Under the pieces are notes generated by a model, which saw only the letters and a program-made list of their open reading frames with translations, did not search any database and was not told the origin of the DNA. Shown piece after piece: positions 46,803 through 55,507 of a stretch of 64,000 nt of DNA. Origin of the DNA: an uncultured Geobacter sp. (GTDB lineage Bacteria; Desulfobacterota; Desulfuromonadia; Geobacterales; Geobacteraceae); NCBI GenBank assembly GCA_903915655.1, contig CAIWTU010000083.1, forward strand, positions 1-64,000. Direction: 5' to 3'. Within the stretch, counting starts at the first letter, position 1; each line of letters opens with the position of its first letter. Position numbers and translations under genes: made by a program.

Positions 46803-48119
46803 CTAGTCTTGCGCATTTTTGATGATTCTGACTTTTACAATCGATGTTTTCTTAACCTCTTCACAGATAACGACAAAATCGTCCAGCAGGAGTCTCTCCC
46901 CTTTCTCGGGGAATCGGCCAAGCCTGTCCAGAATCAGACCGGCCAAGGTATCATACTGCAGGTCTTCACCAAGTCTTATCCCAAGAAGATCTTCTATATC
47001 AGAGATAGAGAGGAGTGCATCAACAATGAGGCTGCCATCCGCAAGCTTCAATATTCTTCCCGGTTCTCCTACATCGTGTTCATCTTCGATCTCCCCCACC
47101 AACTCCTCCAGCAGGTCCTCCGTGGTTACAAGGCCGCTTATCCCTCCATATTCATCAACTACAAGCGCCATATGGACGCGCTTCCTCTGCATTTCTTTTA
47201 AAAGTTCGTTAACCTTTTTCCCCTCCGGAACATAATAGGGAGGACGAACTATCGCATTCAGATCAAATTCAGGTTCCGATACAATCCTGCCCAGGAGATC
47301 TTTACCATGTATGAAACCGGCTATATTTTCGATAGAACCGTGGAAAACAGGGTAACGGGAGTACATATTATCCAGAACAGCCTTAACAATTTTTCCCCTG
47401 GCAAGTTCCAGATCCAACCCCACTATCCTGGTACGAGGAACCATCACCTCACGGACAGACGTATGAGTAAAATCGAAGATATTCTGTATAAATTCATGTT
47501 CGATAGAGCTGAATACCCCTGCCTTTTCTCCCTCGGCAACGATATGTCGAACCTCGTCCTTTGTTACAAAGGCCTCCATCCCTTCCCGCCTGACCCCGAA
47601 CATTGCAAGTACTGCCTTGCTGGAAAGGGTCAATAAGCCTATGGCAAAAACTCCGGCATAAGCAAGACAATTGATAGGCTTTGCGACCGACAGAGAGATG
47701 GCATCCGCACGCTGTAAGCCGAGCGTCTTCGGGACGAGCTCACCCAGTACGAGGAGCAGATATGAAACAAGGATAACCGCGATTGTCAACGACAGCGGGG
47801 CGGCAGCATCTCTTACGAACCTGAATGGGGCAACCCGGAGGGAGGGTTGCAGAAACTCGACCGCAACGGCGCCACCAAGGGCCGACGCGGTCGATCCCAC
47901 CAGGGTCATGCCGACCTGTACGGTAGCCAGAAAGCGATGGGGATCGTTCTGCAGCTGCTGGACAATAGCGGCCTTGGCGTTCCCGATGGAAACCAGTTGT
48001 GCTATCTTGCTTTTTCTCGCAGAAATAATTGCAAGTTCGGAACAGGCAAAAAAACCATTTGCAAGAACGAGTAATAAAATAAAAATGAAATCGAGCCAAA
48101 TTGACAAAACTTCCTCCAC
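46803..48119 (-). CDS. CNNM/CorC family transporter-associated protein (HlyC/CorC)
   Basis: A 438-residue protein in the order DUF21/CNNM membrane domain (10-170, three TM segments, SELAIISARKSKI), a CBS pair (about 215-335, VREVMVPRTRIVGLD; VVDEYGGISGLVTTEDLLEEL) and a CorC_HlyC transporter-associated domain (350-435). Related proteins export or modulate Mg or Co. The start is GTG, or more likely TTG at 48107, which has GGAGG 5 bases upstream. It is transcribed with or just before the TonB-like gene. Confidence 0.86.
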   Translation of the reverse strand: MEEVLSIWLDFIFILLLVLANGFFACSELAIISARKSKIAQLVSIGNAKAAIVQQLQNDPHRFLATVQVGMTLVGSTASALGGAVAVEFLQPSLRVAPFRFVRDAAAPLSLTIAVILVSYLLLVLGELVPKTLGLQRADAISLSVAKPINCLAYAGVFAIGLLTLSSKAVLAMFGVRREGMEAFVTKDEVRHIVAEGEKAGVFSSIEHEFIQNIFDFTHTSVREVMVPRTRIVGLDLELARGKIVKAVLDNMYSRYPVFHGSIENIAGFIHGKDLLGRIVSEPEFDLNAIVRPPYYVPEGKKVNELLKEMQRKRVHMALVVDEYGGISGLVTTEDLLEELVGEIEDEHDVGEPGRILKLADGSLIVDALLSISDIEDLLGIRLGEDLQYDTLAGLILDRLGRFPEKGERLLLDDFVVICEEVKKTSIVKVRIIKNAQD

Positions 48120-48213: not shown

Positions 48214-49020
48214 TTATTTTGTCTGACCGCAATTTGATTCGGTGCCATCGATAGGACCCGATCCGCTGTTGCTCAACTTCCCGATGATCCCTTCAATCAA
48301 GGGAACGTTTGCTCCATTCACAAACTTGCCGTTAACCCAGAAAGAGGGTGTCCCATCAACCTTCAGCTTGTCAACCACGGCTTTCTGCCCCCCCAGGAGG
48401 CCTTTGTCGTCATAGACCTTGTCCAGGAGCGCCCTGTTGTTATCAAGTTTCCCGCAGTATACTGTGTGTAGAGCCTTCAACCTGTCATCGGAAGCGAGTA
48501 TATATTTGACCTTTTTCATGGCATCCGGATGCATATCGAGCGGTTTGAAAAAAATGTAGCGGGTGATATCTGTGCGCATCCCCCAGTAACTGTGCATCTT
48601 CCTGCAGTACGGACAGTCGGGATCTGTCACTTCTACCACCACATTTTTCCCGTTGCCGATCTTTATCCCCTTATTCAGATCGTCGGGGGTGAGAAGCTTG
48701 TACGCTTCCTCTGACAATTTGCCCTGTTCCTCAGCCATCCTTTCCCTGGTAAGGCTTTTCCCCTGCCTGTCGACAATGTCACCGAAGAAAAGATATTCGG
48801 CCTTTGGATGGAAATAGACTATCTTCCCGCCCGCTGCCACTACTTCATAAAGCCCATCGATACCGGTTTTTGACACTTTCGAAAAAGCAAGTTTGGGAAA
48901 CAACTTACGCAGAACTTCTTCCGGAGTCAAGGTCTCTGAAGCTGAGCAGGCAACCGCCACGCAAGCCAGGCAAAACAGAAGCGAAAGCCCAAAAACCAGT
49001 TTTAAACGGAACTTATCCAT
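48214..49020 (-). CDS. DsbC-like periplasmic thioredoxin-fold protein
   Basis: A 268-residue exported protein. A signal peptide (1-28, ending CVAVACSASE) is followed by an N-terminal domain like the DsbC dimerisation region and a thioredoxin fold with the active CPYC at 136-139 and GTPSFWVNG containing the cis-Pro. It would isomerise or reduce disulfides, as DsbC/DsbG do. The start MDKFRLKL has GGGGGTGAG upstream; a start at 49035 is less likely. The Cys of the ACS motif could also be lipidated, but the lipobox is weak. Confidence 0.85.
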   Translation of the reverse strand: MDKFRLKLVFGLSLLFCLACVAVACSASETLTPEEVLRKLFPKLAFSKVSKTGIDGLYEVVAAGGKIVYFHPKAEYLFFGDIVDRQGKSLTRERMAEEQGKLSEEAYKLLTPDDLNKGIKIGNGKNVVVEVTDPDCPYCRKMHSYWGMRTDITRYIFFKPLDMHPDAMKKVKYILASDDRLKALHTVYCGKLDNNRALLDKVYDDKGLLGGQKAVVDKLKVDGTPSFWVNGKFVNGANVPLIEGIIGKLSNSGSGPIDGTESNCGQTK

Positions 49021-49096
49021 TTCACTCACCCCCAAAAAGTATTTTGTTTCTATCCGGAAACTCCGGACAGAAACTATTTAAATTCAAACATTACAA

Positions 49097-49594
49097 TCAG
49101 AGTATCTCCAGCAGTTCGACTTCAAAGGTAAGGTCTTCTCCGGCAAGGGGGTGGTTGGAGTCGAAGGTAATACTTTTATCGCTCAATTCGACTACAACAA
49201 CATCTAATTCCTCATCGTCTTCGCTTGAAAGCACAAGTTCATCACCCACGGCCGGATTCAAATCATCCGGCACATCCGCTCTGGAAACCGTAAACACCTT
49301 TTCCTCGTCATACTCGCCGAACGCATCTTCAGCGGGGATTATCACCGTTTTTATTTCACCAGGGACCATCCCTACGAGTATTTCGTCGATCTGAGTGAAC
49401 AGTTCCTCCTCGCCAACGGTCAATTCCATCGGTCCGCTTTCACACCCGCACCCAGATCCCTCTGAGCTATCATTGGTGGAGCAGTCATCGGATTCACACC
49501 CGGCACCTCCGATGTTGGAATCGAAGATTGTTCCGTCCTCAAGTTTACCGGTGTAGTTAATTTTGACCCTGTCGCCCTTCTTTGCCTCTGCCAT
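49097..49594 (-). CDS. FKBP-type peptidyl-prolyl isomerase with Cys-rich insertion
   Basis: A 165-residue SlyD-like protein. It begins AKKGDRVKINYTGKLEDGTIFDSN (FKBP core), but then has a 27-residue acidic, Cys-rich insertion (27-54) with Cys33, Cys38, Cys49 and Cys51 before the FKBP strand GPMELTVGEEEL; relatives have only a short loop there. The rest is the IF-domain region (AEDAFGEYDEEKVFTVSRADVP) and the closing FKBP strand (DSNHPLAGEDLTFEVELLEI). It may bind metal at the insertion. The start follows GGTAATG; a start at 49603 is equally open. Confidence 0.86.
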   Translation of the reverse strand: MAEAKKGDRVKINYTGKLEDGTIFDSNIGGAGCESDDCSTNDSSEGSGCGCESGPMELTVGEEELFTQIDEILVGMVPGEIKTVIIPAEDAFGEYDEEKVFTVSRADVPDDLNPAVGDELVLSSEDDEELDVVVVELSDKSITFDSNHPLAGEDLTFEVELLEIL

Positions 49595-49699: not shown

Positions 49700-52600
49700 T
49701 TATATCGGCGCATTTTCCGCCGGCTCCAATGCCGTCCGCTCCCTGGCATGATCGGTCGCCAGGAGCAGGTAGATGGCAGGGACAACGAACAGGGTAAAAA
49801 GTGTGCCGATAGAAATACCGGTCATGATAACCAGACCTATATTGAAGCGACCGGCGGCGCCTGCCCCTGAGGCGGTAACGAGTGGCAGCACACCCAGGGC
49901 CATAGCCGCAGTGGTCATAAGGATCGGCCGCAAACGTATAGCTGCAGCCATTTCTACCGACTCACGCTTCCCCTTACCCTCTTTTTGGAGGTCGTTGGCA
50001 AACTGGACTATCAGGATGCCATGCTTGCTGATAAGACCGATAAGGGTCACGAGGCCGACCTCGGTATAGATGTTAAGGCTTGCGCCGCCTACACCGAGGC
50101 TGATAAAGAGCATCGCTCCGCATATCGACATCGGCACGCTCACCAGCACGATCAGCGGGTCGCGGAAGCTTTCGAACAGTGCAGCCAGAGCAAGGAAAAT
50201 GATGATCAAGGCGAAGAAGAAAGTACTCAGCAATGCGCTGGATTCCTGGACGTACTGCCTTGAGGGGCCTGAATAGTCGACAGTGTAACCTTGAGGAAGA
50301 GAACCTTTAGCCAGGGAGTTAAGGGTTTCCAGCGCCTCGCCCAGAGTAACGCCGGTGAGAGGCACCGCTGAGATAGTCGCAGAGTTCAGTTGTTGGAACC
50401 GGTTGAGGGACTCAGGGACTACTACCGTCTTCAAACTGCTTACAGTTGATACAGGAACCGACGCGCCGTTCGCTATGTTCATGTAGTAGTTCTGCAGCTG
50501 ATCGGCATTCAGCCTGTCACTTTGCATGACCTGTGGAATAACCTTGTAAGAACGTCCCGAGATACTGAAATAATTGACATATCCACCCCCCAGCATCGAC
50601 CCGAGTGCACCACCGACGTCGCGCATCGTCATCCCAAGCTGCGCCGTTTTGTCCCGGTCAATCTCTACCGATACCTGTGGCTTATCTATCTTGAGATCGT
50701 TGTCCATATAGGCAAACATGCCGCTCGCACGCGCCTTGTCCATAAAAACCTGAGAAACCTCATCCAACCGGCTATAGGAATCGGTGGTGCCGATGACAAA
50801 CTGCACCGGCAGTCCATCGCCGCCACCAGGGAGTGGTGACGGGAGAAATGCAACCGCCCGGACCCCGGCAATCTCCCCCAGCTTCATCTGCACTTCCGGC
50901 TGTAGCTGCATCGAGCTCCGATCCCTCTCGTCCCAGGGTTTCATAACCATTCCGGCAAATCCACTATTTAGTCCGGGTGTGCCGTCCAGTTGAAAGACAT
51001 GCTCGGTTTCCGGGTATGCTGCAAAGATCTTGTAAGCCTGGCGAGAAGAAAGTTGAGTCTGCTCAAGCGAGGCGTTGGGGGCCGCCGTCAGCAGCGAAAA
51101 GATGATCCCCATATCCTCCTGTGGCGCCAGTTCGCTCTTGGAGGTCGTGTAAAGGAAGTAGATGCTGACCAGTATAATTGCAGCAAAAACGACCGTTACC
51201 GACAGGGTGTTGAGTGAAGCGTGAAGTATCCCTTCATAGACTTTACGGAGGCGTGCGAACTGGGCGTCAATAAAATCTACAAAACGGTGCCTGCTGTCAG
51301 GGGTGTGAGCTTTGAGAAGCTTTGAACACATCATAGGCGAAAGAGTAAGAGCAATAACCGCTGATACGGTAACCGCCCCGGCCAGTGTATAGACAAACTC
51401 GGTAAAGAGAGCCCCCGTAAGACCACCCATAAAGCCGATCGGCAGATAGACGGCAATCAACACGACCGTTATGGCAATGATAGGCCCTCCCAGTTCCCGA
51501 GCCCCCCTGAGCGCCGCCTGCAGCGGCTTCATCCCATCTTCCATGTGCCGATGCACATTTTCGACAACAATAATCGCATCATCAACAACAAGGCCTATGG
51601 CCAGCACAAGGGCGAGCAGTGTCAGCAGATTTATTGTGTAACCAAGCGCCAGCATTATAAAAAATACCCCGATCAAAGAGAGTGGCATGGCAATGATTGG
51701 AATGACAACCGACCTGAACGAACCGAGGAAGAGGAAGATCACTACTGTTACGATCGCAAACGCTTCGAGCAAAGTAATGATCACCTCTTTGATCGAACTG
51801 TTCACATACTTGGTTGCATCGTAGACAATACGTGCGCTGAGCCCTTCTGGGAGCTGCTGCTCTACCGAGGGAAAGACCTTGCGGACGCTACCTATAACCG
51901 TAAGGAGATTGGCAGTCGGAGCTACTTTGATCCCTACAAAAACGGCGCTCTCGCCGTCAAAGGTTACCGATGTATCGTAATCTTCGGAGCCGAGCGAAAC
52001 CGTAGCTACATCATCTAGGCGGACTATGGCGCCGTTTTTCGACTTTATCACCAGCTCACTGAACTCTTCGACAGAGTGCAGTCCGGTGGAAGCGGTAAGA
52101 TCTACTGTTACCATTTGCCCTTTGGTGCGCCCCACGGCAGAGATGTAGTCGTTGGCGGCAAGTGCGTTGCTGACATCCGTCGCTGTAATCTTATAGGCAG
52201 CAAGCTTGGCGGGGTCGAGCCAGGCCCGCAGCGCAAACTGACGCTTCCCCAGTATCTCGGCGGTCTGCACACCATCAACAGCCTGCAGCTTCGGCTGCAC
52301 CACCCGGATCAGATAGTCGGTAATCTTGTTGGTAGGTATATCCTTGCTGTAAAAACCGATATACATGGAATCCGTAGTATCACCCACAGCAACTGAGATG
52401 TTAGGTTGTTGCGAGTCCTTGGGGAGTTGGTTGAGCACCGCGTTGACCTTGGTGTTTATCTCGGTAAGTGCCTTGTTCGGGTCGTAGTTCAGGCGCAGGT
52501 TCGCCTGTATAGTGCTTATACCCTGCGTACTCGACGAGGTGAGGTAGTCTATTCCGTTGGATTGTGCGATCGAATTTTCCAGAGGAGTGGTAATGAAGCC

Positions 52601-52780
52601 GGATACAAGCGCAGGATCCGCGCCTGTATACACCGTGGAGACTGTCACCACAGCGTTCCGGGTCTCCGGATATTCACGTACAGGCAAATGGCTCATCGAA
52701 CGAAGTCCAAGCACCAGAATCACAAGGCTGACTACGGTGGCCAGCACCGGGCGGCGAACGAAAAGATCAGTGTAGTTCAT
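49700..52780 (-). CDS. RND multidrug efflux permease
   Basis: A 1026-residue inner-membrane antiporter of the AcrB/MexB class. TM1 (PVLATVVSLVILVLGL), two large periplasmic loops and the central TM4 proton-relay Asp pair in GLVVDDAIIVVENVHRHMEDG are seen; the TM10 Lys/Thr region is in LVTLIGLISKHGILIVQFAN. It pumps drugs or detergents out with the adaptor and outer-membrane proteins encoded just upstream. Ends near 49.7 kb, close to the FKBP gene. The substrate range cannot be read from sequence. Confidence 0.93.
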   Translation of the reverse strand: MNYTDLFVRRPVLATVVSLVILVLGLRSMSHLPVREYPETRNAVVTVSTVYTGADPALVSGFITTPLENSIAQSNGIDYLTSSSTQGISTIQANLRLNYDPNKALTEINTKVNAVLNQLPKDSQQPNISVAVGDTTDSMYIGFYSKDIPTNKITDYLIRVVQPKLQAVDGVQTAEILGKRQFALRAWLDPAKLAAYKITATDVSNALAANDYISAVGRTKGQMVTVDLTASTGLHSVEEFSELVIKSKNGAIVRLDDVATVSLGSEDYDTSVTFDGESAVFVGIKVAPTANLLTVIGSVRKVFPSVEQQLPEGLSARIVYDATKYVNSSIKEVIITLLEAFAIVTVVIFLFLGSFRSVVIPIIAMPLSLIGVFFIMLALGYTINLLTLLALVLAIGLVVDDAIIVVENVHRHMEDGMKPLQAALRGARELGGPIIAITVVLIAVYLPIGFMGGLTGALFTEFVYTLAGAVTVSAVIALTLSPMMCSKLLKAHTPDSRHRFVDFIDAQFARLRKVYEGILHASLNTLSVTVVFAAIILVSIYFLYTTSKSELAPQEDMGIIFSLLTAAPNASLEQTQLSSRQAYKIFAAYPETEHVFQLDGTPGLNSGFAGMVMKPWDERDRSSMQLQPEVQMKLGEIAGVRAVAFLPSPLPGGGDGLPVQFVIGTTDSYSRLDEVSQVFMDKARASGMFAYMDNDLKIDKPQVSVEIDRDKTAQLGMTMRDVGGALGSMLGGGYVNYFSISGRSYKVIPQVMQSDRLNADQLQNYYMNIANGASVPVSTVSSLKTVVVPESLNRFQQLNSATISAVPLTGVTLGEALETLNSLAKGSLPQGYTVDYSGPSRQYVQESSALLSTFFFALIIIFLALAALFESFRDPLIVLVSVPMSICGAMLFISLGVGGASLNIYTEVGLVTLIGLISKHGILIVQFANDLQKEGKGKRESVEMAAAIRLRPILMTTAAMALGVLPLVTASGAGAAGRFNIGLVIMTGISIGTLFTLFVVPAIYLLLATDHARERTALEPAENAPI

Positions 52781-52828
52781 AGTGGCGCCTTACTCCTGAA
52801 AATAAATTTGATAACAGAGCTCACCGGC

Positions 52829-53959
52829 TCACTGTTCAACCGGTCTGGGCGCAACCTCGTTGCTCGGCAGGACCTTGTTATTAATGATAACGGTAGCGCC
52901 ATTCTTGAGCTTAAGCTGGCCACTTGAGACTACAATGTCCCCTTCCTTAATTCCCTTCAGAATCGCCACCTGGTCGCCTCGTTTAGCTCCGACGGTTACA
53001 AAAGTCTGCTTGGCGATTAAAACCGGCTTTCCGTCCGGACCTTTGCCCCCTTTCTGGACCGTGAAGATCGTCTCGCCATACGGGTTGTAGGTGATTACAG
53101 TCTGGGGCAAGGTGAGATAAGGTTTTTCACCACCGGTCTGCAGGAACGCGGAGGAGTACATCCCTGGAAGCAATTTATGCCCGGGATTGGCAATCAACGC
53201 TTCAACCTGTACGTTCCTTGTCTCCGGGTCGACCTTGGGACTGATAGTGGTAATCTTTCCGGTAAAGGTGAGGCCGGGGTAGGTGTCAGAGGCGGTTAGC
53301 ACCCTCTGTCCACGCGATATTCGTGACAATTCCTGCTGTGGCAGATAAAAATCTATGTAAATAGAGTCGAGCAACTGCAGCGTGACGATTTTGTCTCCAG
53401 GATTAAGGTATTGACCCGGATTGATGGTCGTGATGCCAAGACGACCGGCAAATGGCGCCCTGATGCTCTTCTTTTCGACCAGGGCCGCCTGTTGTGCAAC
53501 GAGTGCCCGTTTCCCCTTCAGATCTGCAGCGTCTGCGTCGAGGGTTGCCTGGCTTATAGCCTGTACCGCCAACTGCTTCTTATCCCTTTCATATACGGTC
53601 TTGGCCAATTCAGAGGCAGCCTCAAGAGAGTGAAGCTGCGCAATATCGGAGTCTGCGTTAAGCTGGACTAACAGCTGCCCCCCCTTGACCTGGTCGCCGG
53701 ATTTGAAATGGAGGGTACGTACCAGACCGGCTATTTCGCTGGCCACATCGACACCACGTACGGCACGAAGAGTGCCAACCGCCTTCAGTTGAGGCTGCCA
53801 GGGGTGCAACTCGGCCTTGATCGTGCTGACTGTTACGGGTGGCGATTTTTGAGCGGCCATCGATTTCATCATCATCTTGTTCCGGAATGCATGAAAGCCG
53901 AAAACTCCACCAAATAAAAGTCCTACGGTTACCAGCATAATTATCATGCGCTTGGTCAT
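52829..53959 (-). CDS. RND efflux periplasmic adaptor (membrane fusion protein)
   Basis: A 376-residue adaptor linking the RND pump to the outer membrane channel. An N-terminal TM (MIIMLVTVGLLFGGVFGF), a lipoyl half-motif around VASEIAGLVRTLHFKSGDQVKGGQLL, a short coiled-coil hairpin, the second lipoyl half (IRAPFAGRLGITTINPGQYLNPGD) and beta-barrel/MP domains are seen. I prefer MTKRMIIM because GGAG sits 9 bases before it; a start at 53974 is possible. It lies between the outer-membrane and permease genes. Confidence 0.9.
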   Translation of the reverse strand: MTKRMIIMLVTVGLLFGGVFGFHAFRNKMMMKSMAAQKSPPVTVSTIKAELHPWQPQLKAVGTLRAVRGVDVASEIAGLVRTLHFKSGDQVKGGQLLVQLNADSDIAQLHSLEAASELAKTVYERDKKQLAVQAISQATLDADAADLKGKRALVAQQAALVEKKSIRAPFAGRLGITTINPGQYLNPGDKIVTLQLLDSIYIDFYLPQQELSRISRGQRVLTASDTYPGLTFTGKITTISPKVDPETRNVQVEALIANPGHKLLPGMYSSAFLQTGGEKPYLTLPQTVITYNPYGETIFTVQKGGKGPDGKPVLIAKQTFVTVGAKRGDQVAILKGIKEGDIVVSSGQLKLKNGATVIINNKVLPSNEVAPRPVEQ

Positions 53960-53983
53960 CGGATTTTTCTCCATTACAAGGTA

Positions 53984-55507
53984 TTATTTTCCCCTCAATT
54001 CTGCTACCGCTTCTGCCGTGGACATTGAAGTCCGGTTCCACCAGCCACCTCCGAGCGCCTGAAAAAGGACCGCAGTATCGGCAAAACGAGCCGCCCTGGA
54101 CTGCTCCAGTTTGATGCGCGCCAGTAGATATAGACGCTGGGCATCGAGCAGGAGGAGATAGTTCACAGCGCCTAGCTGAAGCTGAGCCTGAATAAGGTCA
54201 AGTGCTTCCCTGGCCGCCACTTCCGCAGCAGACTGAGCCTTGAGCGTCAGTGCATCCTGATCAATTGAACGGAGCGCGTCTGCCACATTCTGAAACGCCT
54301 GCAACACGGTCTCACGATACTGCGCAGCCGCCTGATCGTAGGCGGCAACAGCTGCGCGGCGCCTGGCAGTCAACTCCCCGCCATGAAAGAGAGGTTGCAG
54401 AATACCCGCGCCGAGACTCCAGAGGGATGTTCCGCTTGAAAAGAGGTCCTGGATCCTGGTGGAGTTGGACCCGAGGCTCCCTGTCAGGTTAATCTGCGGG
54501 TAAAGGTTCGCCGTAGCCACTCCGACCTGCGCAGACGCGGCATGTAGGAGTCCTTCCGCAGCCCTGATATCGGGACGTTGGCGGACCAGTGAAGAGGGGA
54601 CGCTCACCGGGAGTTCCTCTGGCAGGTGGAGGCTCTCCAGGGTGAACTCGGGCAGATCCGCTTCGCTTGGAAGCCCCCCCGCGTACAGAGCCAAGCGATG
54701 CCGAGTGAGTGCCAGCTGTTTTTCGAGTGGCGGCAGGGTTGCCTCTGTTTGCGCCAGTTGCGCCCTCTGAGCGAGGAGAATTGAACGTGAGACCCCTCCA
54801 AGATTGAACTGCTGTTCGGTCAGGGCAAGATACTTCCCCTCCAACGCCACAATATCCCGTACCTCCCTGATTTCGGCACGCAGTGAAGCCTCGTGAACTG
54901 CGGTGGTAACAATATTGGAGGTGAGGGTCAGATAGGCCCCTTCGAGCTGAAAATTGTGATACTCTACCCGCGAGGCCAATGACTCGAGTTCGCGCCGTCC
55001 TCCACCAAAGAGGTCGAAGAGGTATGTCACTCGCACCGAGGCGTTGTAAAGGTCGAAAGCTCCGCCACCAGCAGGCTGCCCGGAAGAAGCTCCCGATATT
55101 TTCTGACGTGCGGCAGAGAAGTTGGCATCCAGACCCGGATAGTAAATCGCACCGGTTCTGGCGCGGAGGTTTTCCTCCGCCTCCCTGAGCCTGGCCTGTG
55201 CAGCCGAAAGGGTCGGGCTCTCCGCAAGCGCCTGTCGCACCAGTTTGTCAAGAGGGGGGGAACGAAACAGCGTCCACCACTGTTCAGGGATCTCCTCCCC
55301 CTGAACGAAGCGCTGTGACGCTCCACCCGCGCCAGTCGCAGAAGCAGTCTCAGTGGCAACCGGTCTCTTGGTGTAGCTCTTCGTTCCGGGGAGAGCAGGT
55401 GCGCGGAAATCAGGGCCGACAGCGCATCCCCCTAAAGTAAAACTTGCAATTAAGAAAAGAACCAAATTTATCAAACAGACTATCCGGGTCACTTCCATAC
55501 GCTCCAT
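53984..55507 (-). CDS. RND efflux outer membrane lipoprotein (NodT/OprM type)
   Basis: A 507-residue TolC-like channel. The lipobox LGGC ends the signal peptide at about residue 28, so the N-terminus is lipidated. Two OEP repeats follow (PLDKLVRQALAESPTLSAAQARL...; RRAAVAAYDQAAAQYRETVLQAFQNVADALRSID). It forms the tripartite exit duct with the two downstream gene products. First gene of the efflux operon; two ATGs 9 bases apart are possible starts. No linked regulator is seen. Confidence 0.92.
   Translation of the reverse strand: MERMEVTRIVCLINLVLFLIASFTLGGCAVGPDFRAPALPGTKSYTKRPVATETASATGAGGASQRFVQGEEIPEQWWTLFRSPPLDKLVRQALAESPTLSAAQARLREAEENLRARTGAIYYPGLDANFSAARQKISGASSGQPAGGGAFDLYNASVRVTYLFDLFGGGRRELESLASRVEYHNFQLEGAYLTLTSNIVTTAVHEASLRAEIREVRDIVALEGKYLALTEQQFNLGGVSRSILLAQRAQLAQTEATLPPLEKQLALTRHRLALYAGGLPSEADLPEFTLESLHLPEELPVSVPSSLVRQRPDIRAAEGLLHAASAQVGVATANLYPQINLTGSLGSNSTRIQDLFSSGTSLWSLGAGILQPLFHGGELTARRRAAVAAYDQAAAQYRETVLQAFQNVADALRSIDQDALTLKAQSAAEVAAREALDLIQAQLQLGAVNYLLLLDAQRLYLLARIKLEQSRAARFADTAVLFQALGGGWWNRTSMSTAEAVAELRGK

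Follow-up and report, generated by a model that had tools for sequence, protein, structure and literature searches.

INTRODUCTION

SlyD connects protein folding with nickel supply, and HypB is its partner. The Cys/His C-terminal tail is variable among SlyDs and is not strictly defining. Among other thiol-rich proteins, metallothioneins are small stand-alone metal-thiolate proteins, and Hsp33 is a redox switch with a zinc-bound CXC/CXXC centre. The available portion of one report (PMC7055735) describes the CXXCGC segment of Escherichia coli HypB as a subpicomolar nickel site, nickel is stated there and in the available portion of a second report (PMC7840056) to inhibit the isomerase activity of SlyD, and the latter adds that Helicobacter pylori SlyD without its tail is still inhibited by nickel.

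Here we analysed a stretch of 64,000 nt of an uncultured Geobacter sp. (contig CAIWTU010000083.1), hereafter the window, which encodes an FKBP-type protein with four Cys in an acidic insertion. With the SlyDs of E. coli, H. pylori and Thermus thermophilus (TtSlyD) it shares the FKBP domain, the IF chaperone domain in the flap and metal-type residues on an isomerase. Unlike in those proteins, the metal-type residues lie in the loop equivalent to Asp37-Phe46 and not in the tail, they are mostly Cys and acidic residues with few His, and Tyr63 is replaced by Phe. On balance we think it probable that this is a SlyD-like isomerase-chaperone with a putative thiolate metal-binding arm at the rim of the pocket rather than at the C-terminus.

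RESULTS

A SlyD-like isomerase gene and its surroundings

The original prediction of an FKBP-type isomerase rested on an open reading frame that proved to be real and to lie on the minus strand (Table 1). Its start codon is the ATG at 49594; initiation at an in-frame GTG (49603) would lengthen the protein by three residues. Pfam FKBP_C (PF00254) matches the protein at 1.7e-15 (57.5 bits, cut-off 21.1). In the AlphaFold2 model, whose core is mostly above pLDDT 70, an IF domain stands in place of the flap loop as in the SlyD fold, and the best Foldseek matches were SlyD and SlpA, the nearest being TtSlyD (4odm, E 1.9e-13), with E. coli SlpA and SlyD also near. By sequence, the best PDB match was the archaeal short-type FKBP 1ix5 (2.2e-17), which likewise carries additional residues at this position together with an IF domain, but its extra loop is shorter and Cys-free in the aligned stretch; thus the site is known as variable, and it is the content that differs here. 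Since the protein falls below the curated NCBIfam cut-offs of the SlyD / FkpB models (PRK10737, 36.3 of 174 bits; PRK15095, 71.6 of 125 bits), we call it SlyD-like and not a named equivalog. The genome yielded two FKBP_C matches only, the window gene and one within a 442-residue open frame, which is probably trigger factor, judged by its length.

Table 1. Features of the SlyD-like gene in the window
Feature	Position in window	Strand	Basis or remark
SlyD-like FKBP-type peptidyl-prolyl isomerase gene, 165 aa (P0001)	49097..49594	-	Pfam FKBP_C, fold search
Segment	49154..49300	-	Alignment to TtSlyD, borders according to the available part of PMC5034536
Phe92 at the pocket Tyr site (TtSlyD Tyr63)	49319..49321	-	Orthologue/paralogue comparison
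Met56, equivalent of TtSlyD Leu27, first pocket residue past the insertion	49427..49429	-	PDB alignment and pocket list in the available part of PMC5034536
Acidic Cys-rich insertion, residues 27-54	49433..49516	-	Between the FKBP12 Asp37- and Phe46-equivalent residues
CGC (Cys49-Gly-Cys51), closing motif of the family rule	49442..49450	-	CGC in 124/145 insertions
CESDDC (Cys33-x4-Cys38), one Cx4C step of the family rule	49481..49498	-
Asp25, last active-site residue ahead of the insertion	49520..49522	-	Alignment

When the open reading frames flanking 122 orthologue and 23 paralogue loci were clustered, no conserved metal-related neighbour was recognised. A downstream gene, tRNA-dihydrouridine synthase-like by eye, was common to 29 of the 122 orthologue loci, and none of the window's own neighbours fell among the 25 largest clusters. 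One of these neighbours, a gene for a DsbC-like disulfide isomerase (48214-49035, minus strand; Pfam DsbC_N), follows the SlyD-like gene in the same orientation, 61 bases downstream; because it is not conserved across loci, it gives no evidence for a redox role. Also on the minus strand are a gene for a CNNM/CorC-HlyC transporter-type protein with a CBS domain (46803-48119) and a full tripartite RND efflux set (49700-55507) of an outer membrane efflux protein, a HlyD/CusB-type membrane-fusion protein and an AcrB-type pump.

An acidic loop at the rim of the pocket

Between DGTIFDSN and GPMELTVGE, an acidic insertion of about 27 extra residues with Cys33, Cys38, Cys49 and Cys51 had been predicted; these borders and Cys positions agree with ours, and we measured 28 residues, among them six Asp/Glu and no Lys or Arg. 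These four are all the Cys of the protein. From the alignment and FKBP12 numbering, we take Asp25 to be the equivalent of FKBP12 Asp37, and the position of Met56 and TtSlyD Leu27 presumably corresponds to FKBP12 Phe46. In the PDB alignment, window residues 56, 58, 65, 66, 69, 92, 148, 155 and 157 match TtSlyD positions 27, 29, 36, 37, 40, 63, 119, 126 and 128, which are given as pocket or pocket-flanking positions in the available part of the TtSlyD study (PMC5034536). Because the insertion directly connects two active-site residues, it is predicted to form a rim loop of the isomerase pocket.

AlphaFold2 left the insertion disordered in the window protein (pLDDT <50 at 30-37, 39-42 and 45-51) and likewise in a minimal relative, with no ordered site in either model; such predicted disorder neither supports nor opposes folding induced by metal. 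No tandem repeats were found in the DNA.

Spread of the loop and absence of the tail

We collected 201 loci encoding 184 distinct proteins and called an insertion at ≥10 residues. It was present in 145 of the 184, all from genomes of the window's class, Desulfuromonadia (Geobacter, Geotalea and Desulfuromonadales by record titles). The 39 proteins without it comprise 15 from the genome-contig scan, including the class paralogue L054, and 24 from the rest of the phylum; none of the 24 loci that a phylum search fetched from other classes had the insertion. The genome-contig scan was a single one with patterns derived from the window protein, which similar loops in distant phyla could escape. A search of the open-access literature, beyond which subscription journals lie, found no paper on the insertion.

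The insertions are 13-38 residues long, with an average net negative charge of 9, and carry 0 to 8 Cys, six being commonest and 140 of 145 having 3-8; exactly three occur in 29, and odd totals (3, 5, 7) are frequent. The number of Cys rises with length (r 0.86). His makes up 2.9% of insertion residues, so that the insertion is His-poor in contrast to the known nickel tails.

In a tree of the protein core, insertion-bearing proteins formed two separate groups, one of 122 orthologues and one of 23 paralogues, requiring three trait changes, of which at least two were forced by supported branches, the bootstrap being not settled. On this topology the loop may have had two origins, have been lost from the lineages in between, or have passed from one paralogue to another.

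The absence of the His/Cys tail of SlyD, also predicted, was borne out: the window protein stops 13 residues after PLAG, as do 123 of the 145 insertion-bearing proteins, and all 142 that could be parsed end within 13-17 residues. Two SlyD-like relatives outside the class (L094 and L100), which belong to a different family of the phylum, lack the insertion and have CGC-rich C-terminal tails. A CGC-type segment at either of two places would fit a movable metal arm.

Purifying selection on the insertion cysteines

Across the 145 proteins, Cys accounts for 721 of 3718 residues inside the insertion (19.4%), compared with 13 of 19935 elsewhere (0.07%). To count retention, we used 18 close and independent pairs whose insertions had equal length and whose cores were 85-99.5% identical, pairs of unequal insertion length being excluded from all retention counts. 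Unchanged were 202 of 205 Cys, 302 of 393 Asp/Glu and 292 of 416 other residues (594 of 809 non-Cys together), and pN/pS was 0.02 for Cys codons, 0.33 for Asp/Glu and 0.54 for other insertion codons. With a less strict limit (31 pairs, identity 72% or higher), the corresponding values were 0.15, 0.31 and 0.63. From 54 pairs collected earlier, the 24 with matching insertion lengths could be counted, and in these 246 of 258 Cys were unchanged versus 752 of 1028 others (Fisher p 1.7e-17). A first synonymous/replacement ratio test found no difference (p 0.26); its 32 pairs took in distant ones of equal length whose insertions had been compared unaligned. Purifying selection on the insertion Cys is strong.

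According to the original prediction, a lack of Cys conservation in close homologues would suggest a neutral linker; within the insertion, Cys were instead more conserved than any other type of residue. A neutral linker with incidental Cys would be in keeping with the wide length range, the disorder in the models and the loss of most Cys in some lineages, but it is scarcely credible given the pN/pS of 0.02 at Cys codons, the spacing rule described below and the wide spread in the class.

A spacing rule and the reduced copy in the window

Among 183 distinct insertions, neighbouring Cys were spaced as Cx4C (spacing 5) 275 times versus 58 expected from shuffles, and as CxC (spacing 2), mostly CGC, 226 times versus 126, whereas CxxC (spacing 3) was seen 9 times versus 99, although these scores are inflated by relatedness of the sequences. 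The rule holds in 31 orthologues below 65% core identity (Cx4C 30 versus 7.7 expected, CxC 36 versus 16.7, CxxC 3 versus 13.3), and its Cx4C part holds in seven divergent paralogues (8 versus 1.6). Frequent steps are CEDDDC, CGDDDC, CDDDDC and similar. The family rule thus combines Cx4C steps and a closing CGC, avoids CxxC and mostly involves 3-8 Cys.

The window copy keeps both ends of this rule, the Cx4C step and CGC, and lacks the middle Cys; the gap of 11 from Cys38 to Cys49 occurs between neighbouring Cys once in the 183 insertions. With four Cys, fewer than the commonest six, and this rare gap, it appears to be a partly reduced form, a minimal motif whose halves would be separated by a Cys-free stretch. 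A relative of the same genus (L103) shows the minimal form ECDSDDCGCESGP. A DNA pattern for Cx4CGC matched the window's own genome 20 times versus 10 for the control, and no similar acidic module was seen at L260 and L263, the two loci read.

Several strongly conserved Cys close to an active site, and a CXC motif in 134 of 145 insertions, would also suit a redox switch, in which oxidation would join the Cys in disulfides and so alter isomerase or chaperone activity. However, CxxC, the usual fast dithiol, is the spacing that is avoided, the Cys number ranges between 0 and 8, with odd values frequent, and the abundant acidic neighbours would raise the thiol pKa; nor is the CXC plus CXXC zinc centre of Hsp33 matched, with CxxC at 9 versus 99 expected. 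The class is largely anaerobic, which is neutral for this reading. We regard a redox switch as unlikely, and less likely than a metal arm. The metal arm is favoured over disulfide chemistry by the spacing rule, the odd and variable Cys numbers, the avoidance of CxxC, the acidic setting and the exchange with the tail.

An iron-sulfur cluster or other metallocluster site, in place of a metal-ion buffer, would be compatible with thiolate-only ligands in a mostly anaerobic group and with the occurrence of Cx4C in ferredoxins. It is nevertheless very improbable, as 29 of 145 insertions have exactly three Cys, no fixed fourth ligand was seen and the total varies widely. Of the two readings in the original prediction, a new metal-binding module and a redox switch, the first would best fit the Cys pattern; the predicted four-Cys set is present in the window protein and, by the spacing count in the 183 insertions, is not the rule of the family.

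A remodelled pocket

At the position of TtSlyD Tyr63, Phe was found in 168 of 178 orthologues, versus Tyr in all 23 insertion-bearing paralogues and in 38 of the 39 proteins without insertion; orthologue positions 65 and 66 mostly have Phe in place of Val and Ile. As the paralogues have the loop together with Tyr, loop and Phe change are not obligatorily linked. TtSlyD Y63F kept 76% of activity and bound peptide 1.7 times tighter according to the available part of the study (PMC5034536), so by analogy the isomerase activity of the Phe92 protein is probably retained.

This remodelling in the same orthologues, and the strongly negative charge, would also agree with an acidic client-binding or solubility arm whose Cys have a non-metal, non-redox use, e.g. 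capture of thiol clients as mixed disulfides. But Asp/Glu are far less strictly kept than Cys (302/393 versus 202/205 in the close pairs), hence selection does not act mainly on charge, and we consider such an arm improbable.

Cysteine number and nickel genes

The window's own genome has hypA and hypB, and the N-terminus of its HypB, MCTTCGCGAEDQHHH, begins with MCTTCGC, which is of CXXCGC form. The hypA-hypB pair lies at L204 1026-2151, and this HypB also has a His-rich stretch.

We scored the presence of hypB, cooS and nifH in 277 genomes of the class (60 without hypB, with G239 filled in; 71 with cooS; 80 without nifH) and crossed it with Cys number for the 158 with a parsed orthologue, after 4 of 162 orthologue rows (L208, L209, L218 and L246) were dropped on account of an unrecognised insertion border. 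Two Cys or fewer were found in 15 of 30 genomes without hypB versus 5 of 128 with hypB (raw p 3.9e-9; 9e-9 with the four dropped rows added by eye). After correction for kinship by PGLS, p was 0.19 for hypB, 0.58 for nifH and 0.048 for hypB or cooS, the last being one of four single-trait tests and uncorrected. Independent pairs, which were too few, gave no significant relation of Cys number to hypB or cooS, and the nifH control also associated with Cys number in raw counts (p 5.8e-4). The hypB-Cys association is mostly shared descent.

Three or more Cys were kept in 11 of 26 genomes lacking hypB as well as cooS, and two or fewer were found in 5 of the 132 that have at least one of these genes. 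Family f10 has lost nearly all loop Cys, with 0 or 1 in each of the eight orthologues read (L194, L199, L220, L229 and L235-L238); seven of their genomes have no hypB, and the eighth, rated 8% contaminated, has it. L221 (G234) is a counterexample to the nickel link, with the Cys-free loop TVSDSPADEEG though its genome has hypB and cooS. Nickel is the leading candidate metal.

DISCUSSION

In the explanation that we favour, the protein would be a cytoplasmic, SlyD-like prolyl isomerase-chaperone with a metal arm built into the loop at the pocket rim. Cys in Cx4C steps and CGC, aided by Asp/Glu, would bind soft or borderline ions (Ni(II), Zn(II) or Cu(I)); without metal the loop would be disordered, folding upon binding, and longer loops with more Cys would hold more ions. 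More tentatively, metal beside the pocket might alter isomerase activity or client access and so couple folding to metal supply, and in the window's own genome, which has hypA-hypB, the most likely use might be nickel for [NiFe]-hydrogenase maturation.

Compared with the nickel site of HypB, the loop also has a short thiolate segment ending in CGC, but that of HypB is an N-terminal CXXCGC, whereas here Cx4C and CGC lie in an internal loop of a separate protein. Metallothioneins are similarly Cys-dense, with few aromatics, frequent CXC and Cys numbers that grow with length; unlike them, the insertion is a segment of a 165-aa FKBP, avoids CxxC, is strongly acidic and has almost no Lys.

Gating of the pocket by metal would be a reasonable step from the predicted position of the loop. 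The full claim, possible at present but doubtful, would be a metal-gated prolyl isomerase in which a new (C-x4)n-CGC motif sits in an acidic loop at the entrance to the active site and bound metal opens or closes the pocket, the motif being kept across much of the class, in two paralogous FKBP clades with at least two trait changes, and taking the place of the tail that other SlyD-like proteins carry at their C-terminus.

What is new, as far as sequences can tell, is that the presumed metal arm of a SlyD-like FKBP lies in a new place and follows its own Cys rule. The (C-x4)n-CGC rule is a simple motif by which such arms may be recognised. Natural variants with 3-Cys, 8-Cys and Cys-free loops make the coupling of metal and isomerase directly testable, and with its presumed ligands in the rim loop of the pocket, the family would be a natural test case for metal control of such isomerases.
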